This document shows positions 25,104-56,900 of a stretch of 64,000 nucleotides of DNA, in pieces. Location of the stretch: the NCBI RefSeq assembly GCF_003073045.1, contig NC_037597.1, positions 12,373,217-12,437,216 of the forward strand. The letters run 5' to 3'. Made by a program: the position numbers and the translations under genes. Every line of letters starts with the position of its first letter. The stretch's first letter is position 1. The stretch is from Pomacea canaliculata. Its lineage: Eukaryota; Mollusca; Gastropoda; Architaenioglossa; Ampullariidae. The notes under the pieces are model-generated. The model saw nothing but the letters and a program-made list of their open reading frames with translations, ran no database searches and was not told where the DNA came from.

Positions 25104-28100
25104 ATGAAGGCAAACAGTAACTTTCGTGACCAGGTGGGGCAGGTGACAAGTTGGTTCAAGGAATGGAGTGAGTGTGAGCAGACAGTAGCTCTGTACTCTT
25201 TGCTTAAAAAGCTGTCACCAGCTCAAGCCAAGTTTCTAGACCAAGTCCTTCAGCAAAGTTTGGCAGACTGTACTGATGTCATGCAACTGCAGAAGAAAGC
25301 CAATGATGAAGGTAACTCTTGAAATTCGGGCAAGTGTTTGTGTAGCTGTGTAGGTTAATGGATGGGTGAGTGTTTTCCTTATCACATTTAATTAATCTAT
25401 TTTGTCTTTCTTTCATAGACAGACATGGCCTTTGTAATTTGAGTGTTTTGTTTCTTTTGTAAGCTATAGCATTCAACATCGAGTGTTTGCGTGTTTTTTT
25501 GTCTTTCCACTAACATAGGAAGCAGGCAAGCAAGTATTTGCTTATCTATAAAGCATATGTAAGTTGTACAGTTTTGTGAAAATAACTTTTTTGTTAGGTG
25601 GACCAGATTTATTAAGGTTTTTGTTCCGTTGGGAAGAACTACTTTGCCATAAGCAGTGGCACATACTGCTAATATTGTCAGAGGAAGTATGGATTTGGGT
25701 GTGCTTTTGAGAAAATCTTTTGGGAAACTTTACTTTTTAAGAAAAGTATTGTAAAATGGTTCAGGATGTTATACTTTTGTGGCTGGTAATGAACATTTTT
25801 ATTTATCAACTATATTGTATTGTTGTGCTTATCGCTGTTTGTCACTGGACATAGTGAGAAGATACGGATATAATTTTAGTACTTCTGTATAGAGGTAGAA
25901 CCTTGAGCAAGCTTTTGTATTTTCTAATGTTTCCAAAAGGGAAGAAACTTTGCATCCAAATCAAAAGATTCTTTAATTTAGAAAAGTAGTCAGAATTTTT
26001 TTTTATGGCACCTGTGTTTGCACGTTGGGTGTGATGGAGGAGAGGGGTACAGTTGCCTGCTGATAAAAAAATGTTTGGCATGCACTCATTAGTTTCAGTG
26101 TGCACCATCTGTGAGAACGATTGTCATTGCCCAGATCTGAGCTTGGGAACATGAATAAAATGTCAGCTGCAGCAGAGACAGTGAAAAAATGTGAAAAAGA
26201 AATTCATGCACATTTTTATGTAAATGACACAAACACACACTATAATTTATAGTGTTTTTTTTCAACGTGTGTCTGGTACAGCTGAAATTTTATCCATGCT
26301 CCAAAACTCCAGTAACAAAACATTCCAGATTAAATGCTTTATAAATCTTTAACCTTGTTTTGCTACTTTAATACATTGTTTTGTCTGGCAATAATCAATG
26401 ATTAGCAAGTTTAATTGACGGGCTTTACATAGAACACAATGTCGAAGGTCAAATTAAGGAAGTGATATATTCAGTAACATGATGTTTCCTGCTTGACAAG
26501 TATTTTTCTTAATACCTATGGTGGTGTTATTTTGGAGAACAGAACTGAGGGTGGTCATCATTTTTCTTTAGCTAAAGTTAAAGCATTTGATTTTCAATAG
26601 TTGTGAGAGAGACCTGATTCAGGTGACATTTTTTAAAACTGGATTTTCTAGGTGGTTAGAATATTAATAGGTGTTTTAATTTTTACAGTAATATTTGATG
26701 TTTGTACTGGCTTTCCTAACAAGGGATGCAAGGTAACTGAAAGCCTCCTGTTTTAAATTAATTCAGTAGATGTCAATATTAAATTTTGAGAGGCTTAAGA
26801 GTTTGAAAAGTGTGGGTGAAAAGAGAAGAAAGTGAGGTAATCAACAGAATAAACACAAGTGTGGAATTTTGCTACCAGCAGAAGATAGAGGGTAGTCAAA
26901 GAATGGCAGCTGAACCACTAAATACAGCATTCCCTGAAATGGGCCATTTATTTTAAATCTAGTAATTGTTAGCAGATCTTTCATTTAGTCAGCATGTTAT
27001 TGAAGCAAACTACCATTGCAAATATAAAACCAGAAATTTCTGTTGTGATGATTGTTGCAGGGCATATGGTATGATGGGGTTTAAGAGGACCTAAGTTGAT
27101 CACTAAGATTATGCAGCACAATGAATTTTTCATGTCTTGACAAATTGCTTTTTTATTACGAATGAATAAACCATAACCTGGTTTGTCTAAACATATTTAT
27201 TTCGTTGAAACAGTGATGTAAGAATATCAGTTTTTCCCATTTATTTGTAGAATTTTTTTGTTCATAGTAATAAGTTTGATTTCTTTAGTACACATTTTTT
27301 TAAATTAAGAAATTATTATTTTATGGCAGCAAAATATTGAGAAATAATAGAATAAATTTTGTATTGTTTCCCATGGCTGTTTCAGTTTTTGTAGCTGGAC
27401 TCTGTGGGGAGGACAAAGGCAAAGTCATTCTACAGTTACTGCAGTTACTGCCATTGCTACAGGCTGGCAATGAGAAAGCTAAAGCAGAGTATTTGAAGCT
27501 TATACCTGAGGTGTTATCTCACACTATTGAGAATGGTGTGAATATTGAGGAAAGTAGACAACTTTTGTCCTATTCACTCATTCATCCTGCCATTACGCAA
27601 GAAGAGCGCTCCAAGTTTCGCATGTGGCTGGGATATCTTGAAGAGCGCTTTACCTACTCCATTTCTCACACACGCCCCTCTGCCACTGCACCTGAGGGAC
27701 TTGCCCCTGCAGTGGCACCCATTTCTGCCTCCCAGGAGGGGCTAAACAATCTGCAAGGTGCTGGAGGCCCTAGCCCTCCCTATGGGAAATGGTTGGCATG
27801 GACAGGGTCATGCTGCCCATTATGGGATGGATGGTGGAGGTGTGTCAGGAAGTGGTTCAGGAGATGGTGGAACAGTAGGGTCAGGTCTCCTATCAAATGG
27901 CCATTATGGCCTTCGGGCTACAAACAGTCATGCTGGTGTGTTTAGTGTGCCTAATGGACATCATCTGCCTCTTCAAGCAACCTCTTCAGCACCACCCAAC
28001 TTTGAAACACTGTCTACATCAGTTTCACAGGGTGAGTAATCAGTTTTGTTTTTAATAGTTATTTTTATACTTCACATTAACTGGAGTAGTTTTTCTTCAT

Positions 28101-31100
28101 TTCCTTTAACTTTTGCTTAATTTGTAGTTTATAAGTTTACTGGTACAAAAAAAATCAGAGAATTGTATTCGTACAAGATATTTGACATTTGGAACAACAC
28201 TGTAAACAGAACTACATTTTGAAGCATTATTCTTATGATCATTGTATATTCACACTAGTAAGACGTTGTTTTAAAAAAGTACTTATTAATATTTATGATT
28301 AAAATACATTTCACATGGTGGGAAACACAGCAGAGATCAATGAGATCTATTATATATATATGTGTGTGTGGTCATGCCCATTTATATCATGGTGTAAGTA
28401 GCCTCAGTAACCTGAGTAGTTTAACTTATAGTTGTCTTGGAAAAAAATAAGCATATACATGTAACCTTAAATGTATCATAAATCTTATCATTTACTGTGC
28501 AAAACGGAAACAAAACAATATTATGCTGGAAAATTGTTTAATGTTAGTAAATTTAAACCCAGTGATTTTTCAACTTCAGGTATCAGCAGTCAACCAAACA
28601 TGCACACGCGTTTGCACCGCACCACATCAATTGTTCACAGCACGCCTCTACCACTGAGGGTTCAGAACCCAGAAAAGACAGTTACTGATTGGCTGCAGAT
28701 GCACTCATCTGTGACTGGAGGACCTGGTGGTTTAGCAATAGGAAGGGGGCGATCGCCATCTTTTACAGAGCATGCTCCACTGTCACCACAGAGCAGTGTG
28801 ACTTCTTCAGGGAGTGGAGGCAGTGATTCACACCATGATGATGGGCCCCAGCCTGTAAGGGACAGTTTTCTGGAAGAAGGCAGTGGTATGCGAGGTCAGT
28901 TGAGCTATTTTTTTTTTTTTAAAGTACATTTTGACCACCTTTGTTAATAGTGTCAGCATGTGTTTTCTTCTGTTTTTTTTTTATGCAGTGATTCATGAAA
29001 TGAAGCTAGTTTTTGTGATATCTTTGTTCTGGCATTCTGAACAATCTGTAGGGGAAAGAAAGGGAATAGAACTGTCAAGTAAGAACATTAAACTCCCAGC
29101 AGAACATTCATTTCCTCACAAATATTTGAATTCAAAAGTTAATCTGATGCTTATTGAATTACAAGAAAGACATCCTTCACAGAAAAAAAGTTGCTTGCTC
29201 CTACTGCAAAAGAAGAATTGAAAAAAATGTATATTCTGGAATCCACAAACTGTACTAACATTTCAAAAGAAATTTTCTTAAGAATGTGAAAATTTCATTT
29301 TCAAATATATTTTCCTCGGTAATGTGCAGTGTTTCATTTTGGAAACATGGGTAAATCATGTAAGAAAACTCCAAATCAAGTAAAACTGCTAAGGGGGTCT
29401 GAAAAGGTAAATAATTTGGCACTGAAAAATTTTAAAATGTTATATAGATTGATCTGAAGGTCCTATGAGTCATTTTATTATATGAACCAAGCATATGAAA
29501 ACTGAAATTATGTTATTAATGTTATTGGATGTCTTGTCATTTTTAGTAATTTTTCATGTATATGGATATTGAGGTGTACTTTTTTCCTGGGTTTAGTTGA
29601 TAAAACTTTCAGTGTGGCTACATGAGATCTTTAGAAACCCTATGAACTCTATGAATGGGGGAAATACTGATAACATAAGTATATTCTAAATAAAGCCAAA
29701 GTACTCATGATCAGTACCATCACTGCTATGCAAACACTATCATTCATTTTGTTTCTAACCTTTTGAGAGATAACATTTTGAAAGCAATGTAAAATGTTTA
29801 TTTAAATGATTTGCAGTGTCATACCAAGAATGCATGGACATATACACCCTCACTCATTGACTCCTAATGACATTCAGAACCTGAACATATCCTCTTGATT
29901 TTTTTTTTTAAATTGAAAGACCATCAAATTGCCCACTGGGACAAATAAAGTTGGTCATTGTCATTGTCATCATACCTGTCAAGATGGAATGGGTATAACC
30001 TATTTCATTATTTACATTACACCTTAAATTATGACTGTTAGCCTCTAAAGGACCTATCCAACATTTCAGAGCTTTCTTTGCACTTAAGATGATTATTAAA
30101 TAAGTAAGGAGTGTCCGTTGAACAAGCTTGCCTTGATATTTATGATCCTGTCGTGCAGTGTATGCACACTTAATTAAAAGAGGTTTCTGACAGGACGCCA
30201 AAGAAGATTGCATGCTAGTGTGTTCCATGTTAATTTTTTATGAATGTCCCATGGAATTTTAGCTTTTTTAAAAAAAATATTCAAAGCACAAAGCATGCGT
30301 AAATTATCGTTGTCAGTGTACAGAAGCACATGACAGGCATAATTGTCTGTGGAATATTTAGCGTTCCAGACTTTAGATAGGCCAAAAGTTGTAGTTATCC
30401 TTTTGATGCTGATGCACCATATAATTAAACTTTTTTAGTGAAGGTTGACTGCTTTATTGTAAAGTGCTTTTCAAAATAGACTAATAATAGAAAAGGAAAT
30501 ATGAAAAAAGTTTTGTAGAGCACATAAAACTTTAGATTTCAATTTCCATTTCAGTGTCACCAACAAAGATATAACTTACTAAAAATGATTATTTATGGAT
30601 TTTTGTTTGTTTGTGTAACTTATTAATAATTCAAAAGTAAAATGGACAGGAAAATTAAAAACAGGTTTTTGCAAAAAGCATTTTTATTCTTAAAGATGTA
30701 GTTTAGCAGTAAATTATCTGTTAACTAGCATTGTTAGTTAATCTAATTTAGAACATCCATATTATTGTACATGTAATTCAATTATTAAAAGTCTTGATTG
30801 TGAAGTTAAATTTTGACTTCGGACTTTATCACAGAAAGTTGGTATGTTGCTAATATTTAGGAACTGAAGACTGAAATGCAGTCCTTCTATTGTGTGATGT
30901 TAGCTGGACTAAGGAGAAAAGGCTTAAATATATGTGTGCAGCAGTCACACAGTTGTGTTGGTTCCAGGTTTTTGGAGTCATACTCTATGATCAGGATTTC
31001 CTATCCAAAAATTGCAGGGGTATTTAGAGCTGTGATAATTGTTGGGTTTTTTTTCTCAAGCTTTCTTTACATCTGTACAGGATTTGGACATTCTTATAGG

Positions 31101-34100: not shown

Positions 34101-37100
34101 CCTGAACTATACAGGTTTAATCATAATTTAAATGACCTTTCATACCAGATTAAACTTTAGTTTTCAGAGGTATTACATGAATAATTCTAAGGTAACATTT
34201 CTTGTGAGAGCAGGCAGAATAATCAATCATAATGTAAATGATAATCATAATAATTGAACTCACAATAAATTTTATTATTGCAGAGGTGCCAGTATGGCTG
34301 AAGACACTGCGACTTCACAAGTACTCATATTTGTTCCGACAAATGACTTATGAGGAGATGCTTGACATCACAGAGGAGTGGCTGGAAGCGCAGGTGAGAA
34401 ACATTTCTAAAAACTCTTTTAAAAACTCCAAGATATACCTGTATGCAACTGCACAGTTTTATTTCATTGTGCTGAACATTAGAGTACTGTGCTAAGGCAG
34501 TTGTTCATCAGCTTAACTGTCTGCCCTAGTAACCAACCCCCACCCCCCACCCCCGCTTTTTTATTTCCTTTTTATTGCTTTGGTTCTTATTCATATTCTC
34601 TTTATGTGAAATGAGCATCTTCATGATGGAAACACATACCTTAATTTAAAAACATATGGTCATCATTATCATGATCTTCATCACAGTCAGGCATGTTTGC
34701 ACCACCATATGTGTATTGCCATGTCATACACAGCGCTTGTATTGCCTGTTTTATAAAAAAATAAATTCATAAATTTATGATACACCCTTTTAGAGATTAG
34801 CATGTAGAAATCTGTGCCATCAGCATTTCATATTGATGAAGAGAGTGATTTCTGGCTGCTTTTCATTCTGACCTACCCATGAAATATCCTAATTTACCCT
34901 TTAAGACTTCTTTTCTTTGCAGAAAGTTACAAAGGGTGCAAGACATAAGATTGTTATCAGTATTCAAAAGCTTCGGGAGCGACAGCAGGTACTTCGTGAC
35001 TTCGAAAAGGTAAATGCATAGTGATAAAAAGAATTTATGCTATATTGGTACTGGAATATAATTTTACAGTCACGAGATAGAAATTGCATTTTTTTTTTGT
35101 AAATCCTAGAGCATCATGGAAGGTGGATCTATCAAGGAGGTTCTTGGTGAGATGAAAAACATGCTGAATACTCCAATCAAGGCCTATAACATGGCCCATT
35201 CAGGGGCTGCATCTACTACACCTGGCACTTCTCCATTCTCACCACCGCCATCACCTGACTCAGAAATTGTTGAAGGCAACTTACCTGGACAATTCTGTAG
35301 ACTTATGGGGAAAGGTAAGCATTGCAATGCAAATGTGTACGTGTGAGTTTATTGTGAGAACATGTTTGAATTTATGTGTCTAAAATCCTGAACCTATTTG
35401 CATCTGTATGCAGTAGATAGTAATATCTTCTAAATTTTTTTTAATCTCTCCTTCCAAGAGTAGAGAACTTTTACAGGTATACTGGCTTTCTTTCTTTGTA
35501 AAAGTAAACTTAAATTTGTGTCTGTTTTTGTTGTTGTTGTTGTTGTTGTTGTATTTTTCAGTGTATCCATCTTTGTTTATGTCAGTAGCAATTTGCCTTT
35601 GGCAGTTGAGGAAAGTTTCTGGAAGTTTGTATTTAGTGCTGTTGTTTATCCTTCCATTATTCATCTGTTGTTTGCTTGTTCTTCTGTCCCTTATATGTTT
35701 CCCATGTCTCGTTCTTAAGTGCTTAGAGCATGCTTCTTAGGAGTGTGAGTATGCCCTATATAAATTTTGCATTTATTATTGTTATATGAGTTTGCTGTTG
35801 AAGATTTAATTTAATTTAATCACACACTTAGCTAAGTGTAAAAATATGTGTGGATCTTGATAGGAGCTGTTGTCTTTTACAAGTATCTCATGAAAAGGCA
35901 GAAAAGATCTGAAAATATCAGCACTCACTTAGACAAACATCTTTACCACTGACTTCATCTTTTGCTTGCATTGTGAATAGTAGACATGTTGAGGAATATG
36001 GAAATGAAGAAGGCAGTGGAATAAGTATTGTTGCTAATCTGCATGTCAGAAACAAACAGAAATACCACCCACCAGAATATATTCAAACAAAATAAATTTT
36101 TTTGATTTTACAGTGTGCACCCAGCTCCTGACAGCAAGCATTCCAGATGATGAGAGCATACAGCTTTATTTTCAGCTCATCGATAAATGTCTCAATCATG
36201 AGGTGGGTCCTGCTAAATATTAATAGGTGATCATTTTATCCAGAGGTAACCAGTCATAGGGGAGATATGATAAAGCGTAGCAGTGATGAACTTTTACCAG
36301 CATGTTATGCGCCTACATGAGAAGGTCATCATAGGTATACATGCATATGAATGCATTCACACTCTGTCACTAATTCATTTAACCTCTGTCACTCTTTGTC
36401 TGAACACTTTTGATCCATTAAAAGCCACCCTTATAAAGAAAAGTATCTTTTTCTTGCAGGCCTTTTCGCAACGACAGAAATCCCTTCTGTCTTCTTGGAA
36501 ACAGCAAGCTCAGAAAATCTGGCAGCCACCTTCTCACAAGTTTGATAGGAGGCAGAAGGGGTATGTTGGGTGATTGACTTCTTTATTGTTAGTTTTAGAT
36601 TTTCATCATAAACATAGTTTAGTATTTGTGTGGGTTTGTTAAAAATAATCAGTCACCAGTTGTTTTACTGTTTATCTCATTATTTTTATGTTCTTTATTT
36701 GTGTCTAAAGGTGGGGCAATACATTTCCTATGGGCAATGCAGTAACAATACGTGGGGGAGGCTCTCGTTCCCGTCTCACACCAGGTCAAACAGGAGTTCA
36801 GCAGTGGAGTTTTGGTTCCAAGGCGCTCAGTTCTAGGATCTGCAGCTGTCCACACACCACTGCAACGCAATAGTTCTCTAAACACATCAATTTTGAATAA
36901 GCCAGGGCTTTTAGAGGTGAGACGACTTGTGATTATATTGTGGTAGTACCTTCTCAGTGGAAACCTTCCATACTATGAATCCTTTCTTTGATAAGACCCA
37001 AAACATTTTGACAGATTTTGTCTTATAAATTTCCTCCTTAGTGTGACTAATAAATGATCATTTGTGCTGTATTAAACTTTTTGTAGAAATTATATGTTAA

Positions 37101-38263
37101 ACTGCTTCTTAAAAGAGTGCTTGTGACAAAAATTATCTGACTTTTGAAGAAAGAGTGCAGGTTATCAAAGTGCTTTGGGTTAAAGACTTTCCATAGGGAT
37201 ACAGTTTTCCTCATGCAGAAAAAAGTATTTTTTTTTCACTTTAAACACATAGGGAAGCTTTAGGTAGGGCTTCGAAATTTTACTGAAAGATTAAATTGTG
37301 TAAAAAAAAACAACAAAAAAATACCAAAGAGACTTGACTGATGATAAATAAAGACTAAGGTGGTTAGAACACAGTTGAAGATAGGAGAAAAATCAAGAAC
37401 TCGAGAAGTTTACAGCTCCTCCATATCCCACCCCCACCCCACAAATAAACAAAAAACAACTTAAAAATTTAAAAAAATGGAGTTGACTGGGGACAGGAAA
37501 AGATGTCAGAAATTTCCTTCAAATTACTATGTCTTCATTGTCTGTTTTATTCACAGTTTTGGTCATATGGATTCTTTCAGCAGTTCGATACTGATGTCTT
37601 TAATAGTTTATGCCGCTTGCATTTCAAAACACTCTTTTTCTTCTGTAATGCTGGCTTGCCAGTTATATGTTTTATGTAGTGTTGGTATAGATGAACTGCC
37701 TTTCTTCATTATGTGTGCACTTCAATTAAATTAACTTGATGACTCATTAACTTTTTGGTATAAAATTTTTTGACAAACTTGCATATCTTCTGTGACAGAT
37801 TATAGAAAATGTATTCTTCTCCCCCCAAAAAAAACCTAAGTTATTAAATATTTGACAGGCAAAACAGCCAGTAACAAGAACCCAGTCTGCACCATTGCGA
37901 TCATCTCATCTTACTCTGACCATGCAAAGTACCGGCACAGAGCCAGCCACAGACACAGAAATAAATGCCAGCCTTGATTCTTTATGCTTAAGGATGACTG
38001 AGCATGCTATTGGCAGCCTTGGTGAGCTAAATTTATTTTACTTCAACTGAATTTCTTTTTATTTATTGACCCATCTTTTGTTTTGATTCTCTTTCTATAT
38101 CTGTCTCCCTCTTCTTCTGCTGAATTGTGACACTGACATTGTAAAATGCTTGTTGAGATGTTTTCATACACTCAGATTAAGAAAGTATATAAAGTATTCG
38201 GAGCTTAGGATCATTGTGATTTTTTTTTTTACAGATGGCAGCGACAAAGGATCAACATTCTGA
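25104..38263 (+). CDS. SAMD4A: Smaug / SAM domain-containing protein 4, complete but with two apparent frameshifts
   Basis: Smaug binds stem-loops with CNGG loops in mRNAs and represses translation or recruits CCR4-NOT deadenylase. Coding exons: 25104-25311, 27386-28031, 28580-28894, 34284-34393, 34923-35009, 35110-35314, 36114-36202, 36460-36560, 36711-36916, 37859-38021, 38235-38263. Allowing one extra base in exons 2 and 9, the product is 718 aa, the length of human SAMD4A. The N-terminal Smaug similarity regions read [20 protein letters not shown] and [34 protein letters not shown] follows near residue 360. The SAM domain (about 390-452) has [22 protein letters not shown] and [14 protein letters not shown]. 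The PHAT region (about 512-585) has [19 protein letters not shown] and [13 protein letters not shown]. The C-terminus has [13 protein letters not shown]. Invertebrates have one Smaug, equally related to SAMD4A and SAMD4B. Introns 2 and 3 hold most of the repeats. Confidence 0.95.
28350..28371. repeat. (TA)n(TG)n microsatellite
   Basis: Alternating TATATATATATGTGTGTGTG in SAMD4 intron 2. Confidence 0.8.
29925..29985 (+). repeat. Possible non-LTR element 3' end
   Basis: GGGACAAATAAAGTTGGTC followed by repeated ATTGTC units looks like the 3' terminus of a CR1/L2-type LINE or its SINE. It lies in SAMD4 intron 3. Upstream sequence is not recognisable. Confidence 0.35.
31100..31320 (+). mobile_element. 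tRNA-derived SINE (probable)
   Basis: The head GTGGTCTGGTAGTAAACGG then TTAGCGCCTGTCACC resembles a tRNA 5' half with an A-box. GGGCTCAGCTCT about 50 bp later could be a decayed B-box. A body of about 150 bp follows. It cannot fold into a full tRNA cloverleaf, so it is not called as a tRNA gene. SAMD4 intron 3. Confidence 0.6.
31502..31731. mobile_element. Non-autonomous hAT element with 8-bp target-site duplication
   Basis: The ends CAGGGGTGGGCAA and, read inward from the right, CAGGCCTGGGCAAA are hAT-type inverted repeats. The 8-bp duplication ATTTAAAG occurs at 31494-31501 and 31732-31739. The element is strikingly GC-rich against its surroundings. It contains two tandem copies of an about 31-bp unit (GGGCCGGATGAGAAACTGG...) near 31530-31592. 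There is no transposase. SAMD4 intron 3. Confidence 0.88.
32230..32440. repeat. Dispersed repeat fragment, related to 52180-52400
   Basis: Shared motifs include CTTGACTGGT, GGTGATGA-CAGG and GTC-ACTCTTT spaced similarly to 52180-52400. Both are probably decayed non-LTR fragments. The adjoining frame 32358-32726 may belong to it. Alignment was by eye only. Confidence 0.4.
32905..33000 (+). repeat. Non-LTR/SINE 3' tail with (ATT)n
   Basis: GTAAGCACCTTATATGCAAG ... TTTTATAAATAAACATTATTATTATTAC is a typical LINE/SINE end with a short (ATT)n tail. SAMD4 intron 3. Confidence 0.45.
35526..35553. repeat. (GTT)n microsatellite
   Basis: About eight GTT units in SAMD4 intron 6. Confidence 0.85.
35640..35790 (+). 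repeat. CR1-like LINE 3' end
   Basis: GTTCTTAAGTGCTTAGAGCA then TGCTTCTTAGGAGTGTGAGTATGCC, with CTATATAAATTTTGCATTTATTATT as the tail, matches the reverse complement of 57646-57740. It belongs to the same family as that larger copy. Confidence 0.65.
37877..37894 (+). other. RTQSAP motif in Smaug (possible 14-3-3 site)
   Basis: Residues 662-667 fit the RxxSxP mode of 14-3-3 ligands. Human SAMD4A has a similar TRTRSLP at the corresponding place before its conserved C-terminus. Binding itself is inference. Confidence 0.4.
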
Positions 38264-41200
38264 TTTCCATGCTGATTCCATGTGTTTCTTGGCTCCATAA
38301 TCAGGTCTTGATGGAAGATTTGATTATAGCGAGCACCTTACAGAATACCACACATTTACATATTCCACTCTATGTTTTGCTTTTTCTGATTCTGACATGC
38401 TTTGCATTTTCGCAAAATCTGAAAGGCTAGAGAATGTGTCTTGAAGGTTTCTTTTATACATGCTGTGTCCACAAAACCAGCCGACAGTATTTTGGGATCA
38501 AATATTTGAGTCCATCTTCTCAACATTTATTTAGCATTGTTATGTGCTGTTGAAAGGTAATTCTTTTTTACATATTTAAATAGACATTGTCTTCAAACTA
38601 GATTATGGAATCAAAACAGTTTTACAGAAAGTAGTCAGCCATAAAATCCCACTAAAGCGAGAAACATTGTGGGATAAAAAATTGTTGTTTTCTTGGATTA
38701 AAAAAAAACGTACAAGAGCAACTCTTATATTTTAGCTGAGAAAAAATTAAAGGGTTTTCACTTAAATTTTTTTTAAAGATTTTGTTACTAAAAAGTTCAA
38801 TGATGATCTCAAACTCAGATGTTTTCCTCTGTTTGCTGAAAAACAAATTAAGAAAATGTTCAAAACTTAGTGAAAAATAATATCTGAAAAGTCAGGTATT
38901 GATTAAGAAATAAAGTACACCCTTTCCTCAATTTACAAACTTATTCATTTCTAAATATTTGTTAATCTTACCCCAGTGACCCTAAAAAGTGAACCTTTTT
39001 ACAAAAGAGGTGTTAAACTGTCAATCCATTTGCACCATGTGAACAGCCTAAAACACCAATTTCAGAAGCTGCCTGCAGGAATATACACATTTTTTACTGC
39101 CACATTGTTTACTGCATAGAGACATTCATTGAGCGGCCTTCGTGCTTATCTTCATTTGTTTAAAAAAAAGCATTAAAAGGGACTTAACTACAGTTAAACT
39201 TACAGTTAATAGTTTCTTAACAAAAAATTATATATTATGATTTGTTAATGTGTTAATTTGGCTGTAGATATGTATTTTTTACGTTCACATCCTCATGCTG
39301 AAAATTGTAGAAAATTTTTTTTTTGACTGACAGTGAATGAACAGGATGTATGTCCTCTCATTTCTTTCAAGATGTTTTATTACTTCCATTGTTTCTTTCA
39401 GTTTTGTAAACACATTCAATTTTGCTCCAATTCAGAAAGATTTGCATTCTACTTTCATTTGCACCCTTATATTTTAATTTTATGCACAGTTGTTGCTAAA
39501 GTGCAGAGGATGTACTTTCCCACCTTTCTTTGAAGATTTATTATTTCTATCTTATCTTCCAAACAGTCGCTTGGTTGTACTCTTTATAGTTATCTTTTCT
39601 ACTTTTTTGTAAACTCCCTCATTATGGATTATGAGCACATTATGGCATGACATCTTTAGCAGAAATGAACAAAGCTGGCTTCATGCTAGTGGTGGCTGTT
39701 CATAGGCGCGTACTATAAAATTTCTGACATGCTTGTATTTCAATGTGGAGTGGCATAGAATGTGGTTTGCTACAGCAAATCACTGGCTCATCAATTGGAT
39801 TTAGGTATTAATAGTTAAGGAACGAAACAACTTTTTGTGAGAGTTGCTTATGTCTGCCATAAATTGTCAGAACCCACAAAAGAAATATTTGTGAAACACC
39901 CAGATTACAGTTGCTGAGGCAGGAAACAGTTTTTTCTTTTAAATGGGGGCTGCTTATATATACCAGCAGGAAAGTTTATGTGCTTATTGATAACCTATTA
40001 AAAAATTGTATGAGTGAAAGATTTGAGAGTGCTTAAAATGAATTAACCATGGGAATATCAATGGACACAGTAGAAATGTGATCAAGAATGCAACAGTAGT
40101 CAGAACTTTTTTTTATCCTTGGTTGTCTAAACATTGAGTGATCTGGTGGTCAAGAAATAATGGTCATGTGGTCATCGTAGATTTGTGCACAGACAAATGT
40201 TATTGAGTTGCAGAGAGGGGAAAATGTGAACAGATCTATGCTACTTCTGTGAAGTAGCAAACTATATATTTTTAAAATTCTTGATGGGAGGAAGGGGGTT
40301 GTACATTTTTAATATAATGTCCTTTGATGCGGAAGTGTTCTAACATTTATTTGAGGACTGGTACCAAGGTTTTAATTTTGGATGCATCGATTTAGGTCTG
40401 ATTGTTGTTTTTAAATTAATAGAAAGTGTTGTTAGTTAAAGTTCTCACGTTGATTGTGCTTTTTTAAAATTATTAGAAAAATCATTTATTAAACACTGAT
40501 AGTTCTGTGCTTTACTTTAATGTTGATCCTTTACCATCTGTACAGTTTTTCCTGTAGTTTGAAGTAGTATACAGACCTCTTAGTTTCTCTTTTTGCTGAA
40601 GAACAGCTACAAGAGAGTTGATATTGTGAGGTCTTTTGCACTCTGTCCTCTTCTTAAAGGTCTTCCTGAGTTCAGTAGTTCTGATAGCTTAGTATGACAG
40701 ATTTTCTAAAATCTGAGTGAACATCCTGCCTCCATTCTGAAGTTGACAAACACCACCATACACAAAAGACATCAGTAACAGTCAAGGTTACAGCCAATGG
40801 GATAATTGGGACCATATATTAATTAGACATATCTCTTTTTCTCCATAGCAATATTTGTAGGCAAAAGAACTTAGATTTTGGGAAACAGTATTTTGTGCTG
40901 AGCTCAACCTAGTGATTTGCAGCTTTAGACGTTTGTATACCTTTAACAGTAAATACATTTTCCCCAAGCTTCTGCCTGCTTGCTTAAGTGCAGCATGGAA
41001 TGGAGATTTCGTTTTCAGTCCATTTAACTTTGTCCTGCTCTTTGAAGATTGTAGTTCCACCACAGAAAGAGACCAGCAAATTCTTTCAGACTTCAGCTTG
41101 GTTATCTCCAGAACAGGTCAGTCATGTAATGTGATTGGCTCAAATTTTTAAAGCAAAATATTTTGTTAATTTCCTTGATTTATAATGTCATGACTCTTTT

Positions 41201-44200
41201 GGTTGATGTCTCATACAATACCTTCAGTTAAGAATTAATGAAAGGGTACCTTCAGTTAAGAAATGAGGAAAGGGGTATCAGAGGATGAAAAGTAAAGTGT
41301 AAATAAACCACAAGCAATCATATGAAAGCATCTTAGGACTCGTAGAGCTTATATGTGCCTAGAATAGCTGGATATCTGTAAATGAAAACATCTAACGCCA
41401 ACTAATGTGTGCCTGTGTCTGCACATTTTGTAAGGATTCTGCAGAATGGAGTGACATGCTTAATTAACATAGGCTATCATAAAATCATAATCTTGCTAAC
41501 TTGTATGTTTAGTAAACAATTTTTTTATTATGACTGTTATTTTAAGTCAACATGACAGAGTGACAGTGAATAACTTTTGACAGTGGTTGCATGTAAGGGT
41601 ATGCAGGACAGGAAAAAGAGATTTTAATTTTAAATTATTTAAGAAGTAAAACTTTTTTTATTTAAAAAATGAGATTAAAAACTTTTAATCTCAAGCATGA
41701 CTTTTCCCCCAAAATAGCTGAACATTTGTAGAAATTCTTCCTCCAGGTAATTCTAAGCAGTTGTCACTGTCATTGTAGTCCATTTTGCTGGCCTGATTGG
41801 TTTGACAAAATTCATTCTGCCTGATTTAAATTTTTTCACTGCATTTTTTTAAAATTAAAATGGATGTGCTTATAGGGCATTTTCTTGACAACACATGTGT
41901 ATTTATGCTTACACATGCATATATGCATGCATGTGCACACATATAGTAATGGTCATCAGGTGAATGACAAAATTCAGTGTGTGAATTTTGAAAGCAAATT
42001 AAATGCCTTACGAAAGGAAGGAAAATATTTTTATGTGTTTTTTTTAAATAAAAATCTCACTGGGATGAAGCAGGCTTGTGATAGAGATGGAAATGGTGTG
42101 CATTAGTCTAAATGTCTGAGTTTTTGTTTGTTTTTTTTTTTAATTGGTACCCTTGTGCTCCATCAACTTGAATTTTCCTGTTGCAGTTATTTGATATCTG
42201 CACCAGAAGTAAGAGGGGGATAGGGTGTAACACAGTAAGAGACTCTCGGGAACCTTTACATGATGAAAAGATGTGTAGTGCAGGTGAATGCGTCTGCAAT
42301 ATTCAGCATTCATTTCTCTGTGAACCTTGCTGTTTTGCATAACTGTTTGGTGCCTTATGGAAATCGTAGATGTTTTTGACATGAATCAGTTGTTTGTATT
42401 TTGGTATGTTTTTCAATGTCAAACCAGAATGATTAATGTCTATTTTCATACCCACTTCATGTCAAAAAATGGTGATTCACATGTGAATGAACTGCACTAA
42501 CCAGTTCTCAAAGCTTTTTTATCTCTGTATAAAGAAAGGAAAACTTTTTGTTTGCAAAACATGTTGGAAAATGTTTTACTGTTTGCCATTTGCTGCAGAA
42601 TGATTACAGAAAGTTGCAAATTGTTTGTACTTGTTTCCACAGTGGTTATTATTTGGGGTGTTTGTGTTCATAGTGGCTGTTCTGTCATGGCTTTATCTGC
42701 ATCTGATCTCAGAATCATTATGCAAATTTGTATGTTTGGATTGCCATCACCTGCCAATTGTTCATGCTAGATACTTTAGAAAAAGCAACCAGTTGGTAAC
42801 TTATGAATCCAAAACAAACAAAATCTTTCTTAGTATCTTAATAGAGTAAAATCTTATGAACCTTTGCCAAAATGTGCCTTTGATAGTTCAGAAGTTGATA
42901 TAAAGTAAAACTGTATTAACAAAAAAGTTATTCTTTATGCCTTTTGTTTTAGAAAGATGTCTGAAAATTTGAAGAATTTCACATGGGAAAAATCAATTCC
43001 CCACTGTTGTCAACTGGATTTAAGTAATCTCATTTACAAGATTATGATTAAAACATGATACTTAAAATAATTGTTTTTGAATATTCTGAATATGCCTTGT
43101 GTAGCATTTAAACCTCCCTAGATGGACACATATGTTTGATAGCCAGCAAAGCATAAATATTTGGTAAAGATAATACCTTTAACATGCATACACTTAGTTC
43201 AACCTCAAAGCAGTGCAAATTTTGATCCTGTATATATTTGAATATTACAGGCAATCAGTATCAGTGATGTTATTTTGAATGAATGGAGAGCAGAATTGTC
43301 AGTCTATGGCATGAAGCTATTTTAATACCCATAGTTCAGTTTTCATTTTTACAGAATTTCCTTTATTGCAAGTAAATTCCTAAGGTTTAACCTTGTCTCA
43401 AGACATTTACAGTATGTTAAACACATTTTTCCCTTTATATATCCTATGGTATATGCATGTAAGAAAAGTCGAATGTTTTTAAAGGACACAGAACTGTGTC
43501 TCATTTTAAGAAAGTTTTGAGCTCATTTTGGCAAAGGTTTCTATAGATTTATCTGCTCTTAACTGCCACAACAAACAAATTATATCCATTGCATTGCAGT
43601 AAGATATCTTTTTGTAACTGATATTTTTCTGTTCACTATGCACTGTATTTCAAGAAAATCAGCACTGCAGGTTCAGTGCTAAGTTTTGCCAACTAAGAAC
43701 ATTTTCATGTCAAACAATACAATGTATTACAGGATTTGCTGTGATTATGCAAATTTCTGAGTGGTTAGTCTGAAAATAGATTCTTCATATAAGGATTTGA
43801 CATCTTAGTCCTACAAGTGTAACATTGAAACATTTAGGGCAAATCATGACATAAGAAATCTAAATTTACAAGATTTCCTAGAGTATCAACGTATGCCTCA
43901 TCACTTTTTGAGTTATTTTTAAAGTATTTGTTCAGAATTCATCTCAGTGGTGTATTTTCATGGAAGTAGGATTGGGAAGATTTTCTTGTAATGATTGTGG
44001 TTATTTAATTAGTCCTTTCAACAACTGTTATATAACTAGTAACTATATAACTTAATAATTCCATTTCTGTTGACGATGAAACAGATAAACAGATCCATAG
44101 AACACCAAATTCATTGAAAGAATCCCTGATGCAAAATTGAAGGATAGAATGTTCATTCTTGATGAATGGAATTTTCCTATGCCCTTATTTCAAGTAGACT

Positions 44201-46247
44201 TTTTTTTTTTGCAATATTTATAAAATCACAGTAGATGTTAATAGGTGCCTTTGCTGCTGATGTCCGTTACTAATGTTCAGGTGTTGTTTAAAAGATTACA
44301 GAAGTTACAATTACACTACATGGCTAGCCTGCAACAAAAGCAGCATGTGAGCAGGACTATTTTGTTGTTTAAAACTGTTGTCAAATTTTAAGAATCTCTG
44401 GTTGTGCTATTGTTTTCTGTCACACAGTCAAGCACCCGTGGTGTTATTTCATTTTTGTTTTTTGCTTTATTGGGGTTATTACACACTTTGTCCATCTAAA
44501 ATTGGGGTGTGCCTATTGCCTCCTCTCTGTGCAGCTGTAGAAGTAGGGAACTTGGAATGAATGATGTCACTCTTTCAGTGGAAGAAGTTACATCTAGAGT
44601 ATGTTGACTGCTATTTTACCTAGTGTCAAAATGCTTTGTAGCTAGTTTTTAATTAGGTCACAAGCATTCAATCTTCTGTGACAGTTCTCAAAAACAAGTG
44701 ATGCTCCTTAAATAAACCATGCGTCAACTTCAGTCTTTACCAAAATATAAGAGCTACAGTATCAACAGAATTTCAAACAAGTGTTTTTAAAGGAGTATAA
44801 TGCATAAACATCATCCAGAATATTCCATACTTTTTAAAACTAAAGTGACACTACAAATCCCCAGCTTATAGAAAAAAATATCTTTGTGGAATTGTGTAGG
44901 AGAAAATATTCCACGAAAATAGACAAAAACATGAAATCTTTCTTTTTGAAAATATCTGCAAAGCAGTTTCATTGAATATTCATATTTGTTTTGATTATTT
45001 AAAGTTGGAGCAGTTCATATGCTCTGGTGCAACAGTAATTATTCTGGATAAGTTACACGAAAGAGGACTGAAAGTAGCATTAGAGCCTAAGAGTTTAATC
45101 CAATAATTTAAAATGTTTTTAGTCATATCAATGAGGCCCTGGCCTGGTCTCTCATTTAAAATTCAAATATGACAGATTTTAAAGTATAACAAAATTTCAA
45201 CATTGCTTGTATGATGCTTTAAATCAAGTACATATGAGGAGAATGTTGAATAAGTAACTGTTTTCTTATTGATGTGATTGACCAGTACTGTTTTCATGAT
45301 GGGTGGGGGAAGCATGTTCAATTATTAAGTCTGAAAATTTTTCTATGTTTGCATTTCTCTAGTGATGCTTTTTCATGGTTTGTATTGAAGTTTTTGTATT
45401 GTAAGTAGAAAACTGTGCCATTATGAAAGACACAGATATTTATGTGGGTTATTTTGCTCAGTTTTAGTGGCCATTTAGAATTAATTTTTAGGTTGCATAA
45501 GTTGATTTTTAGTACTCTGCCATCCCCCCCTCTCCTCTATCTGTCTTTGTAGGTTCTTCCCTTCCTGTGGAATTGCTGTGGAATGCTTCATTAGAAACAA
45601 CTAGCATTCATATTCTGATTTGAACATGGTTAAATTTGGTTAAAGCTAAGAAATGCATATAGCAAGAAGTATTAAGTTGGCAGTAGGCAGAAAACTGTTC
45701 ATTAAAAGCTATCATACTATTACCTCATTCAGTAATGTTGTGGCAGCATTTCTAACAATCTATTAGATCATTTTTGTTTTTAGTTGATCAGAATACTGTG
45801 TTACATATTGGAAGAAAGCTGTAACTAGGTTAAGTATCATGAAACTGGCTTGATACACTTTCTTTGGCACTTCCCACAATTAGATGTGCAGATCTAGGTA
45901 GGTTTTAAGAGAATTTTATATGATTTGCTTAAATAATGATGTCAAGGATTTCCAAATGTAGCTTAAGCACTGTGGACAAAAGACATAGATACAGTGAAGG
46001 CTTTTTACAGGTTTTCAAAATTACAAGAGAATCACCAAGGAGCAATTCTTGACTGTGTACACGTAAGACCCGTTTTGGTCATGCACACATGCAGTTTGTT
46101 TTTATTGCCAGTTTTATTTTGAAAGTTTAAAACTTGTAGTTTAAATGTTTGTTTTAATTAATATTAGTTCTATTTTGGAGTATACTGTTATGCAGCATTT
46201 AACAGTTGCTGGGTTGCTTTTTCTTTTAAAGAGAAATAAATGTGTAA

Positions 46248-46511
46248 TGTCCAGGAAGACAGCTACACGTTTCAGTTGCACTTCAGGTAGATAGAGTGCT
46301 TCCTTTTTGATTTCCAAGGTGGGAGTGTTTAAGTTCTGATCATGGAAAGAGTACAAATGTGATTTTAGTTTCTCGTTATCAAAAGAAGAGAATTTGTGAT
46401 TTTGTTTTTATGGTGTCCAGGAAGACAAGAACCATGTTCTGTTTTATTTAGTTGTCCAGGAAGGCAAAATAAATTTTTTTTCACCAAGTGAAAATCTGTC
46501 CAGGTAGACAG
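46248..46511 (+). promoter_or_regulatory. Cluster of four Smaug-recognition-element-like hairpins
   Basis: Four copies of TGTCCAGG[A/T]A[G]-type sequence start at 46248, 46414, 46453 and 46496. In each, UGUC pairs with GACA (or GGCA through a G-U pair) and closes a six-base loop CAGGAA or CAGGUA. That fits the CNGG(N)0-3 loop bound by Smaug. Copies 3 and 4 extend the stem to 5 bp. They lie about 8 kb downstream of the Smaug stop codon on the sense strand. Confidence 0.55.
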
Positions 46512-48420
46512 TCTCTGTTAAAATCTTTCAGTTTAGATTGTTGTTTCATCTCCAGAATGGAGTGATGTTGAAAATGTTTTACATGCACATTATCAGTTGG
46601 CCATTCTGAACATTTGAAATAGGAATGGAGAAACATTTTATGCAAAGAAAATCAATAAGGTAAGGCCCTATAGTGAAAAGATTTTCACCTAGATGTTGTT
46701 TTAACAGCTAGAGACAGTAATTAAAATAGGATTGCTATAGAGTTCATTCTCCTTAAATATCTTATTCCACCCTAGACTTTTGCAGGACCTCGGTACTGTA
46801 GAAACCATGTCTTAAAGGTCATTTTAAAAGTCAGTACATGATGCATGCATCGTGGCTCTTTATTTTGTTCTTACAAGCATAGAAGTGTAATTCATGGCCA
46901 CATGCTTGACATTTACAGTGTTTAAAATATAGTTTTAATGTTCGTTAGACTTGGATGGTGAAGAAAAGGGTTGGGAAGAGATGTTAGGTGCAATTTATGT
47001 AGCAAAAAGAACTGTTAAGTTTAATATCATTCAGGATATACACATATTTGGGAACAAAAATTTAAAGCAGCTTAATCTGGTAATGTTTGGTGCGGCAGTT
47101 TGCTTTAAGCTTTTGTGAGTGAGTTATTAACTTCCTGATGGCATACTTCAAATAAAGAGTTGGTTTATTTGTGCTCGCCATAAAGATCTGTAAGGAATTT
47201 GTATTTGCAAAACTGTTGCAAAAGTTCAACAAAGTAGCAGCCTAGCAGATACTGATTTAAATTATTTTTGATGTAGAGGTATCTTGAGAAAGGCTTCAGG
47301 CCTTGGAGTTCCATTATAATATTTGAACCTTGCAACACCAGAGAATGCCCATAAATTTTAAGGAACAATATGAAATGGATGTTTTCAGGAAGAGCATCAG
47401 CTTTTTAGATCATTGCTGGTGTGAATTTTTAGCTGGCGGTAAAGGGGTCATGGAAGGAGTAGATACAACAAGAGATACATCACTTGTTAGCAACATTTTT
47501 CAAGACCACATTTAAGCTAAACACAGTTAATATTATCTTCCTTCCCCTGTAAGATAAGACAAGAATTATTTATCACAAGCATCTCTTAAGAAACATCTTT
47601 TCCTCTCCATCAGCCATAGTAATTAAAGCATGTATATTTTATGTTTTTAGTTTTGATAGTTTAAATTGCCAGTAAAGACTTGTAGGAATTGACTTGCAGG
47701 TTCTGTAAGGACTGCACAGTAGTCATAATAACAGCACATAAACTGGCACTTAACATTTGCAAATTATCCATAATAATACCGTAACAAAGAATGAAGATTA
47801 GGAAGACCTGGGAACTAAGTTCCGCTATATGGTTTATTACTGTCCCACCAGATATTTTTTTGACAGGGCTGGTCAGTATGATCCCACCAGACAGAATAAC
47901 TATGACAGAATGGTATCTCCTGTTACTTGCTAGGTAACTGGCTTTGATGAAAGATTTTTGACTATTATGTTGAAGACAGTTATTGTCATAGATTACCCTT
48001 TATTTTTTTTTTTTTGGCTTCATAAACATTTTCACATCATAGGGAGTAATTTTGTTACGGTGCTTGACAGTTGACAGTTTGTTCAAGTTGAAGTGTTAGG
48101 TGTTGGACACATGATTTTAAGTGACTGTTAAAGTTTACTGTTCTCTTGAAATTTCAAAAGTTGCCATTATTAGCTTTAACAAAATCATATCACTGACATT
48201 TACGCTTTGCATTTCTTTTCAACTACCCTATTAACCAGACTGTAAAGAGAATTAATAAGACTGTGTTCAACAGTTATATTTGCAGTAGATCACTGCATAA
48301 ATGATAGTTACTTTTGCTTATTTAACAATGAACAAGATGGATTGTAAGGGAACAGCTATTTCAGCACTGATATCTAAGCTAAAATGAAAGTTTAAGACCA
48401 GGGTTATGAAATATGTTGTT

Positions 48421-49208: not shown

Positions 49209-49950
49209 TTATTTCTTGACATGGGCTAAATCATATTTGCCTCGGATACATTTAAGCTTGACACCTGGCAAATCTGGAACTCTCCCCCTCGGACCAACAC
49301 AATGCTGTGTTCCTGCAAATTATGACCTTCACCAGGTATATAAGCTGTCACTTCCTTACCAGTACTCAGTCGCAAGCGCACACACTTTCTGTTTGCAGAG
49401 TTGGGCTTTTTTGGCTTTTTGATAAGAGTTTTCAGTACAACTCCCTTTAGTTGTGGTCGCCCATCCATGGGTGTCCGTTTTTTTGGCTTGGGTTTAGGAG
49501 GACCTTTGCGATGCATCTGATTCAAGGAAGCCATTGTGCGAGTTACAATGGATGTGACCCAGACAGAGATTCCAGTGCTAGCCTCATTCTGAGGATAATG
49601 ATATGGCATGCCTGCCACAAAAAACACAATTTTTTAGTACATTTCAGTGCAGCGATTCCTGCAATTGGTTTCAGTTTAACTGAACATTTATACTGCGTAG
49701 AAGCACAGCCAAATAGGCTGCACTAACAAAATAAAATGTAAATTTTAAAATTTCATAAATCTTAGTTCAATGCATTAATCCCATAAGCTAGTCCCTAAGC
49801 ATTCTTTACAATTTATAATTACAGTGTGTACAGAGTTAACATACCATTGTAAAACTTCTGCCCTATGTGTGAAACATGTAGAAATCTGGACAGTTGTCTG
49901 TATGCACAGGATATCCACTGTCCTGCCCCAAACATCTGTGGCATGAGCAT
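49209..49950 (-). CDS. MRPS12: Mitochondrial small ribosomal subunit protein uS12m, one apparent frameshift
   Basis: uS12m sits at the mitoribosome decoding centre. Two minus-strand coding exons: 49950 down to 49845 (exon start 49960) and 49611 down to 49209 (stop at 49211-49209). They are joined GT-AG in phase 1. The N-terminal stretch, beginning [18 protein letters not shown], is basic and Ser/Tyr-rich and acts as a probable mitochondrial presequence. The mature part starts [19 protein letters not shown] and contains the uS12 signatures [18 protein letters not shown] and [12 protein letters not shown]. The expected C-terminus ([21 protein letters not shown]) lies one frame over. A base is missing, most simply from the five-C run at 49284-49288. 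Counted with that base the protein is 169 aa, longer than human (138) at the N-terminus. The AATAAA at 49208-49213 overlaps the stop codon. Confidence 0.92.
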
Positions 49951-53900: not shown

Positions 53901-56900
53901 TACCGATTTAGAGTTTGTATATATATAAATCTCTATTGAATAGCAGTGAGATGCTGATAGTAGTAGTAAACTTTTGTAATTCATTTGCAGCTTCATGTTT
54001 GCTTCATAGTTTGTCTGCTGACACATGTGGATCTTATTACTCCACTTGAAAAAGCAAAGTACCATTAAGGGTAAAAGTTAATATAAATAGCAGTAAACTT
54101 GAATGTCAGTCTATTAATTGAATCTAACTTTGCATGGAAAATAGATGACTAAATAAACAAAGAACAGCTGGAACGAAAGATTCATATTCATTTTTATGTT
54201 CCGCACAGGAAAAGACTAAAGTAGTTTTCCTATCAGTTGCTATGTGAATCATGAGTGAAACTTTCTTTGCTATCTGTGCATCACACCCTTGTTCTATGAA
54301 AGACATGAAGAGCAGGAGAGTATCTATATGTACATTTGCATGATAGTAATAGCAAAAAATATCTTTGCTCCATTCCCAAGCTAATAAATTGAAAACATTA
54401 TTTCTCCAGACCTCTGTCATTTTACAAAGGGATTTTGCCACCTATTTTGGCTGAAACACCAAAACGTGCTACAAAATTCTTCACTTTTGAGAGATACAAG
54501 AATTTGCTTGCATATGGGAATTATCTCTCACAACCAGTTGTAAGTTTCACAAACAAATGTATGGTCGAAGGGAATCATAACAAAATTTAGTTGTCATTTA
54601 AATGAATTTTATTATACTAGGTAGCTTTGTTATACCAGTGTGTTCTTTAGCAAGAAAATTGACTATCTGTCCAATTTAAGTCACATATACCCACATTGAT
54701 ATAGTTTCTGCAGCTTACTCTGATTTTGAAGATCTGTATTTGAGATCGATACTTCTGTGTGCCAATTGAAGATTTAATCCTTGAAGGAAAATTTAAAGAT
54801 AGGGAACATCTAGTGCAGCTTTTACCCAAAATTTTTTTAAAACAAATATTTAAGAGTAATAATAGTAATACTATTAACATTAGAAAACTCACCTCAGAAG
54901 TATATCTGCTATATCATTGTCTTTTTTTTTTAAAAAAAATGTGGCTGCTTAACATTAGTTTCATGAATGGTTTTCTGTGTTTTATCAGACTCTTTGTACA
55001 ATTTCTCCACAAGTTTTAAAAATCAGTTTCTAAATCTTACTTTTATTTAATAAGACATTTAACATACTGACCCTGTGTATTTTACTGCATAAAAGTGCAA
55101 AATAGTAATACTTGGTGATATTGAGCAGGCAGTGATTAAAGGCATCATATCAGCTGTAGTCGTTAGCCAGTGTACACCGCCAGACATTTTCTCTCTATTT
55201 GATAAAATATACTTTCCTTTGGGTTAATGGAAAAGATTTATCCCCCATTAGTTGTAGGACTCTTTGCATTTGTTGGCAGGACTTTGATGTAAGTTTCTAA
55301 ATTTAAGATGCACTTTTATAACTGCTGACATCAACACAGACACATAATTTGCTGATTGAAAATACAAGTGTCCTTTCTTACAGTATTATGCCTATATAGA
55401 ATTCATCATATTCTGCCAATTCATTTGAGTTTGTATGATTTTAAAAAAGAAATTCCCAAAGGCAAATGCAGTTTAGAATAATAATCTGCCTTGATATCCT
55501 CTTTAACTTTTCCCTGTAACATTAGGAACAATGACAGATTGATAGCTCTGTGACAGATTTGGTACTGGTCAGTGCAGAGTTATTGTGCTAATAATGCTGG
55601 TTATAGGAGATGTCTAATGCTTTTTGCTAAGTTTTTGTAGAATTCTGCCAGTATTATAAAATTTAAATAACTAGTTTAATTATTATATGTTGCAGGTGCT
55701 GACCATAGCTGGCTTGTTTGCAGGTTTTACAGAAGCCATTGTTGTAAACCCATTTGAGGTTGTCAAAGTGCGTCTGCAAGCTGAGCGACAAAGTTTTACA
55801 CAGGTTAGTCTAAGCAGCGGTTCTCAACCTGTGCTTACAAGGGGGGCGCGAAGGTGGTCATTTTTTAAATTTCTTATACTGGTATTAGTGAAATTAGCTT
55901 ACATTGCTGGTTAAGGGGTCGCGCGGATGTACCTTTGTTCGTCAGGGTGGCGTCACAAGTAAAAGGTTGAGAACCGCTGGTCTAAGGTGATGTAATTCTT
56001 TGTCAATCAAATTTATTCACCGCTTTTCTTCAGAATCATTATCGTTATAAAATTTTTTTTCTTAAGTGTCGTAAGAAACAAGTAATTCATTCTTTTATTC
56101 ATGTTTGCTAGAATTTAAATAGCTCTGTTTATTTCAGGGTTCATGCATAACAATGATTAGACAAATGGATGTAGAGGAAAAGTAGATGATTCATACATTT
56201 GAAAGACATTTTACTCCTGTTAATTTAGATTTTAGCTGTTTGTGATTGTATGATGCATATACTGTTTGCTGATATTCAGTTGCTTTTGTGTGCAGCAAAA
56301 AGGTACTATTCAGACTGCCAAGGAAATTATTGCTAAAGATGGATTTGGTCTCAAGGGGTTGAATAAAGGTATGACTGCGACTCTGGGAAGACATGGTATA
56401 TTCAACATGGTGTATTTCAGCTTTTATCACAACATAAAGGGGATTGTTCCTGAAATTCAGGTTAGTTTATAATGTTTGAAAATATTTAGTACATTCTATA
56501 GGAATTTGTAGATTATAATTCCACTGTCTTCATAATTGCAATGTCGGGGGTGGTGGGGTGAAGAGAATGAGTGAGGAAGAGATATACTATTGTTTTATCA
56601 GCCTTTTAGCAGTGTTATATGGAGAACAAGTTTGTTGTCAGTGTGAAATATGATGACAGTTATACTTGAATAATGGAATGATTAAAATAATCATTTGGCA
56701 GATTTTCAGTTTATTTGTCTTCTTCCTTATGTTAGACTTCAGTGGGGCATTTTTCACTATGCAGAGTCTGTTTCTCCTGCAGGATCCTACTATGGACTTC
56801 TTCCGAAGATTTTTCATTGGCCTTTGTGCTGGAACATTATCATCAATTGCAAATATACCATTTGATGTAGCAAAGAGTAGAATACAGGGACCACAGCCAG

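Follow-up and report, generated by a model that had tools for sequence, protein, structure and literature searches.

Smaug recruits repressors and causes deadenylation. In fly embryos it clears maternal mRNAs, and its own level needs tight timing. Its targets in Drosophila include the nanos translational control element and Hsp83.

Targets of Smaug carry in the mRNA hairpins with CNGG loops that are recognized by its SAM domain (PMC4053848, in part). The loops follow the rule CNGGN0-4, and fly Smaug ranks CUGG, loops of five bases and a G before the loop best (PMC4053848, in part). In C3H10T1/2 cells, fusing three Smaug-recognition elements (SREs) to the 3' end of a luciferase reporter is enough for SAMD4 to repress it (PMC5259697, in part). 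In the mouse, Mig6 mRNA is under SAMD4 via sites in a 5'UTR, that of a gene other than Smaug (PMC5259697, in part).

That RNA-binding proteins can regulate themselves is well established (PMC6884704, in part). One such case is the polyadenylation inhibition element of U1A, in which the protein sits on structured sites in its own 3'UTR near the poly(A) site and exerts negative feedback (PMC6884704, in part). For many yeast RNA-binding proteins an association with their own transcript has been reported, the likeness to the proposed case being the self-binding (PMC2573929, in part). Among the literature matches listed, in which subscription journals are thinly covered, no report of Smaug self-regulation was found; the main text of PMC4053848 contains neither "smg mRNA" nor a word beginning with "autoreg", and that of PMC6884704 neither Smaug nor SAMD4.

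In a stretch of 64,000 nucleotides from the snail Pomacea canaliculata (from here on the window), a block of four similar 14-mers lies downstream of the gene for SAMD4/Smaug. The block resembles the fly targets in that its copies can pair as hairpins with CNGG loops that would be offered in an mRNA to the SAM domain of Smaug. It differs from them in that its CAGG loops, of six bases, share one almost fixed stem and in that the fly targets are other genes, whereas the block would target the mRNA of Smaug itself; unlike the Mig6 sites, it lies downstream of the stop codon. From U1A it differs in the protein, in the RNA fold and in that only two AATAAA words are found within 20 nt of its copies. 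The neighbouring hairpins suggest that Smaug turns down its own mRNA.

The SAMD4/Smaug gene and its surroundings

From its sequence we identify the + strand gene as a gastropod SAMD4/Smaug. It has ten coding exons with AG/GT borders (Table 1), and its stop codon ends at 38,263. Both hallmarks of the Smaug/SAMD4 family, a SAM domain with RNA-binding residues and a PHAT region, were found. The SAM domain matches that of fly Smaug (1oxj, E 1.7e-21) and that of yeast Vts1. The PHAT match is weak (E 0.00097; 19.2 bits, under the cut-off of 21.5), and the 30 protein matches listed for the region of exon 1 all carry the precomputed PF26034; a Pfam profile scan gave no match in the first 190 residues of exon 1 or in P0001, a near-identical protein of other source. 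The nearest named relatives are Smaug homolog 1 of Aplysia and a hypothetical protein of Nucella. Eight RNA-contact residues are given for yeast Vts1 (PMC9499636, in part). At these positions, aligned by eye, the snail protein is identical to fly Smaug in 8/8 and to Vts1 in 5/8.

The reading frame shifts within exon 1 (27373-28031) and within exon 8 (36711-36916). In exon 1 this is a one-base change relative to P0001, which reads straight through. Since P0001 is uninterrupted at this point, the frame changes in the two exons are likely to be length errors of the assembly.

Past SAMD4 no coding exon was recognized by eye among the + strand frames of at least 28 aa, up to 45.5 kb. The four copies lie 7,985-8,247 nt beyond the stop codon, and 15 AATAAA or ATTAAA words precede copy 1 in the presumed 3'UTR. 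Because of this distance of 8 kb and of these earlier words, the common SAMD4 transcripts may end before the block. Strand composition was tried as evidence for transcription and rejected, the skews from 26 kb to the window end leaving the 3'UTR undistinguished.

Further downstream the minus strand carries a gene (Pfam S12, E 2e-22; relatives uS12m of Babylonia and Nucella) that we take to be MRPS12. In its exon 49226-49633 the frame, compared by eye with the S12 sequence, apparently changes at a G run near the end. Elsewhere in the window are an N-terminal exon of striatin (2978-3364, minus strand; PF08232), a mitochondrial carrier exon (56657-56983, + strand; PF00153) and a reverse transcriptase ORF (10549-11880, minus strand; RVT_1, E 1.4e-28), and the minus-strand ORFs next to the latter, to 9.3 kb, seem on inspection by eye to belong to a single non-LTR element.

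Table 1. Positions in the window of the SAMD4 exons, of the presumed 3'UTR and of the CAGG hairpins (P, predicted probability)
Feature	Positions	Strand	Remarks
SAMD4 coding exon 1	27373..28031	+	SMAUG/ZCCHC2-like PHAT region
SAMD4 coding exon 2	28580..28894	+	splice sites, frame
SAMD4 coding exon 3	34284..34393	+	SAM domain, first half; SAM_1 E 8.9e-08; Smaug 1oxj E 1.7e-21
SAMD4 coding exon 4	34923..35009	+	SAM domain, second half
SAMD4 coding exon 5	35110..35314	+	
SAMD4 coding exon 6	36114..36202	+	
SAMD4 coding exon 7	36460..36560	+	
SAMD4 coding exon 8	36711..36916	+	reading frame changes inside
SAMD4 coding exon 9	37859..38021	+	
SAMD4 last coding exon	38235..38263	+	Nucella relative ends DGGDKGSTF
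Presumed SAMD4 3'UTR (inferred)	38264..47180	+	no coding exon recognized by eye up to 45.5 kb; AATAAA at 47151; presumed MRPS12 beyond
Separate CAGG hairpin	43661..43680	+	perfect 7-bp stem AGCACTG/CAGTGCT, unrelated; loop CAGGTT; P 0.99 (0.20-0.995 over 18 settings)
14-mer copy 1	46248..46261	+	TGTCCAGGAAGACA; stem TGTC/GACA, loop CAGGAA; hairpin predicted
Extra CAGG hairpin	46278..46299	+	6-bp stem GCACTT/GAGTGC unrelated to the copies; 10-base loop CAGGTAGATA; P 0.90 (one setting)
14-mer copy 2	46414..46427	+	TGTCCAGGAAGACA, identical to copy 1; hairpin predicted not to form in context
14-mer copy 3	46453..46466	+	TGTCCAGGAAGGCA; CAGG hairpin, U-A to U-G in stem, 5 bp
14-mer copy 4	46497..46510	+	TGTCCAGGTAGACA; CAGG hairpin, loop CAGGTA, 5-bp stem 46496-46511
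Candidate distal poly(A) signal AATAAA	47151..47156	+	GT-rich DNA after it

The four 14-mers and their recurrence

An earlier note on this DNA had reported the four 14-mers in sense orientation to SAMD4, a stem substitution in one of them that preserves pairing, and a lengthened stem in two. Positions and letters proved to be exact, 4/4 copies lie on the + strand as does SAMD4, the U-G pair replacing U-A in copy 3 keeps the pairing, and the two longer stems, of 5 bp, are those of copies 3 and 4. The hairpins had been called conserved in the note, a word that can refer only to the likeness of the copies to one another. Twelve of the 14 aligned positions, among them the eight consecutive bases TGTCCAGG, are invariant across the copies; the two substitutions are that from U-A to U-G and one at a free position of the loop. 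Both are allowed by the SRE rule, and so would be 13 of the 42 possible single changes; their placement therefore counts as weak support for the SRE reading.

A piece of about 14-24 bp could have been copied a few times nearby and the copies could have survived by chance, in which case the hairpin shape and the Smaug neighbour would be coincidental. Such a local duplication would agree with the stem sequence, which is near-invariant beyond what the SRE rule asks, and with the finding that clustered repeats are not rare, a family with at least three copies within 300 bp being present in 6 of 20 genomic stretches of 10 kb. Also, copies 2 and 3, 39 bp apart, share 15 of 30 flanking bases, a value reached by 106 of 7,850 positions of the same spacing; this pair is one among six tested, and the other five showed no clear excess of flank identity. 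Against a duplication speak the pooled flanks (15 bases each side, six pairs), in which 49/180 bases are identical versus 27.9% by chance, the similarity ending where the stem ends, and the irregular spacing of 166, 39 and 44. Moreover, the exact hairpin shape is found in only 8 other 14-mers among 127,974 (window, both strands), so that a 14-mer repeated at random would rarely be such a hairpin. We consider a local duplication unlikely, albeit a serious competitor.

That four copies would not be expected by chance had been claimed in the earlier note, and the counts bear this out. With up to 2 mismatches the window has, on both strands, 6 matches versus 1.89 expected, and 0/100 shuffles reached 6. 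If up to 1 mismatch is allowed, the window contains two families of complex 14-mers with four or more direct copies inside 300 bp: the CAGG family and one at about position 794. None of 100 3'UTRs simulated with matching composition yielded a family of four; a three-copy family at two mismatches was contained in 5/100.

The note had also named beforehand a dispersed repeat as one of two findings that would speak against it. In the assembly (440,159,624 bases, 24 contigs) the pattern TGTCCAGGNAGRCA gave 26 + 22 = 48 matches and the backwards pattern 21 + 14 = 35, which is near background, whereas a truly dispersed 14-mer of the same window, used as positive control, gave 640 matches versus 0 reversed. 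Four of the 48 matches are the block copies, and these form the sole tight cluster of the pattern in the genome; the next closest group, in a list judged by eye, consists of three copies on C4 that are separated by 5.5 and 6.3 kb. As an exact word, TGTCCAGGAAGACA has ten entries in the genome match list, two of these in the block. From the 48 versus 35 matches and the lone tight cluster it follows that the cluster is unique for the word and that the word is not of the mobile-element type. A dispersed or mobile-element repeat was therefore rejected for the 14-mer.

The 14-mer of the positive control, TCGGATAGCGAACA (640 exact matches versus 0 reversed), is clustered at 775-856 and is also present in L020. 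This cluster, the one at about 794, looks like mobile-element repeats.

The same counts bear on whether the block acts as DNA, independently of RNA, either as clustered sites for a transcription factor (an enhancer) or as the remnant of a mobile element with subterminal repeats. TGTC...GACA is indeed an inverted repeat in DNA, and the other such family of the window, that at about 794, resembles a mobile-element repeat. A dispersed element should recur, however, as the repeat at 794 does and the 14-mer does not, and all four copies have one orientation and keep the asymmetric centre CAGGNA, while a palindromic DNA site would leave its spacer free. A DNA-level element is thus very unlikely. A tandem minisatellite was rejected since Tandem Repeats Finder, which gave 28 rows at score 40, did not list the block and the spacing is irregular. 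A resemblance to a STAT-like site was rejected, a core base being wrong in 4/4 copies.

Predicted folding and density of the hairpins

As folding score we used the summed probability of the base preceding CNGG being paired so as to close a loop of 4-8. It was modelled on the published SRE score (PMC4053848, in part), with fewer windows and our own settings. For each copy the hairpin probability was computed over 18 settings of context and temperature.

The six-base loops, CAGGAA or CAGGTA, conform to the rule CNGGN0-4 in 4/4 copies. That each copy folds, as the earlier note had it, holds for the local stem of 4-5 bp round CAGGNA, which is possible in all four; in context, misfolding is predicted for copy 2, and the folding of copies 3 and 4 varies with the context. 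The predicted probability for copy 1 was 0.988-0.999 in 18/18 settings, the hairpin being extended across a 1x2 internal loop by an outer stem of 9 bp (46238-46246/46264-46272). For copy 2 it was at most 0.004 in 18/18 settings. For copy 3, which has an outer stem of 5 bp (46446-46450/46470-46474), 15 settings gave 0.44-0.95; the other three, those with flanks of 60 nt, gave at most 0.011, down to under 0.001. For copy 4 the probability varied over the settings from 0.26 to 0.88. An AATAAA at 46235-46240 abuts hairpin 1, and another at 46468-46473 overlaps the outer stem of hairpin 3.

With the hairpin forced, the energy was reached by 2.3% (of 300), 49%, 55% and 5% of the flank shuffles for copies 1-4, respectively, and with these percentages uniformly favourable flanks were rejected; the gain of copy 4 is due to another hairpin, located in the flank. 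When inserted at 400 randomly chosen 3'UTR sites, the word had a mean hairpin probability of 0.33, so that the real copies are mixed rather than uniformly favoured. The extra CAGG hairpin between copies 1 and 2 has a loop too large for CNGGN0-4. Its core departs from the family pattern by 4 mismatches; 57 sites on the + strand of the window (the four copies included) come as close or closer, and its kinship with the copies is therefore not established.

Per 300 bp, the summed hairpin probability of the block is 2.34-2.35, and no other part of the window scores as high on either strand. The best 300 bp of the window without copies reached 1.01 (+ strand, at 13664) and 1.00 (minus strand). The maximum was 1.70 in 160 order-1 simulated 3'UTRs and 1.92 in 40 genomic strand-stretches from 20 loci, covering 200 kb, both of which are below the block.

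The total for the whole presumed 3'UTR, 3.52, exceeds that of 160/160 simulations (mean 0.71) and is reached by 4/40 genomic strand-stretches. CNGG words number 43 in the presumed 3'UTR versus 52-127 per genomic strand-stretch. The score per site with CNGG (3.52 over 40 sites) is higher than in any of ten altered loop classes tried on this strand; three of the ten, with more sites, have larger totals (4.10-5.02). Most of the 3.52 is contributed by copies 1, 3 and 4 and by the hairpin at 43668. An SRE enrichment along the entire 3'UTR was not supported, the total being equalled or exceeded in these genomic stretches and loop classes, and the signal is thus the cluster and not the 3'UTR as a whole.

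Possible self-repression of Smaug and competing readings

We tentatively propose, with somewhat less than even confidence, that the block forms a cluster of SREs in the distal 3'UTR of the mRNA for SAMD4/Smaug itself and serves in negative feedback. A SAMD4 transcript would have to extend to the block, several Smaug SAM domains would bind the CAGG loops together, and the bound Smaug would recruit repressors and the CCR4-NOT deadenylase, by which translation and stability of the Smaug-encoding mRNA would be lowered. The earlier note had likewise read the block as a means by which Smaug represses its own mRNA via the distal 3'UTR. Its reading agrees with the gene being Smaug, with the contact residues, with the loop rule and with a unique, non-random cluster; it does not agree with copy 2, which is predicted to misfold. 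Self-repression is further favoured by the density of predicted hairpins, the rarity of the hairpin shape among 14-mers, the shared sense orientation, the two additional CAGG hairpins on unrelated stems and the luciferase result with three SREs.

Other findings also count against self-repression. CAGG, a six-base loop and a preceding C are acceptable to fly Smaug but below its top rank (PMC4053848, in part). The predicted fold of copy 2 is not that of an SRE, copies 3 and 4 are predicted to adopt it only in part, and few likely SREs are found in the presumed 3'UTR outside the cluster. SREs have no requirement for a particular stem, and the near-fixed stem of the block therefore counts against the SRE reading; it exceeds what Smaug needs for binding and would be explained better by duplication or by another ligand.

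Such a ligand could be a trans-acting factor other than Smaug, either a microRNA or an RNA-binding protein reading stem and loop, that controls SAMD4. The invariance of the eight consecutive bases and of 12/14 bases in total would then be accounted for, and to a reader of linear sequence it would be irrelevant that the hairpin of copy 2 is out-competed. Invariant bases are found on either side of the loop, however, which is more than the pairing of one microRNA seed explains, and no Rfam family was found in the window at the gathering threshold; at a relaxed threshold there were three weak C/D-box snoRNA matches, none overlapping the copies. A resemblance to miR-7 was rejected, as the match would be confined to two copies and would lie on the minus strand. 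We regard another trans-acting factor as quite improbable.

Within the proposal that Smaug acts on its own mRNA, the protein could control the choice of the 3' end: binding of the SAM domains would mask the AATAAA words at 46235 and 46468 and shift the balance between mRNAs that contain the SRE cluster and mRNAs that lack it. Two of the seven AATAAA words of the presumed 3'UTR are within 20 nt of a copy, where 0.15 would be expected (Poisson P 0.010, for a feature picked post hoc). We hold this variant to be highly improbable; if true, the feedback would depend on the choice of the 3' end.

If the block arose by chance duplication, nothing of general interest is left. If self-repression is true, Smaug would join the RNA-binding proteins known to regulate themselves. 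A cluster of binding sites for Smaug in its own mRNA would give a conserved repressor, here in a lophotrochozoan, a concrete feedback circuit that can be put to the test, and it would mark a candidate place to inspect in the SAMD4 3'UTRs of other animals.
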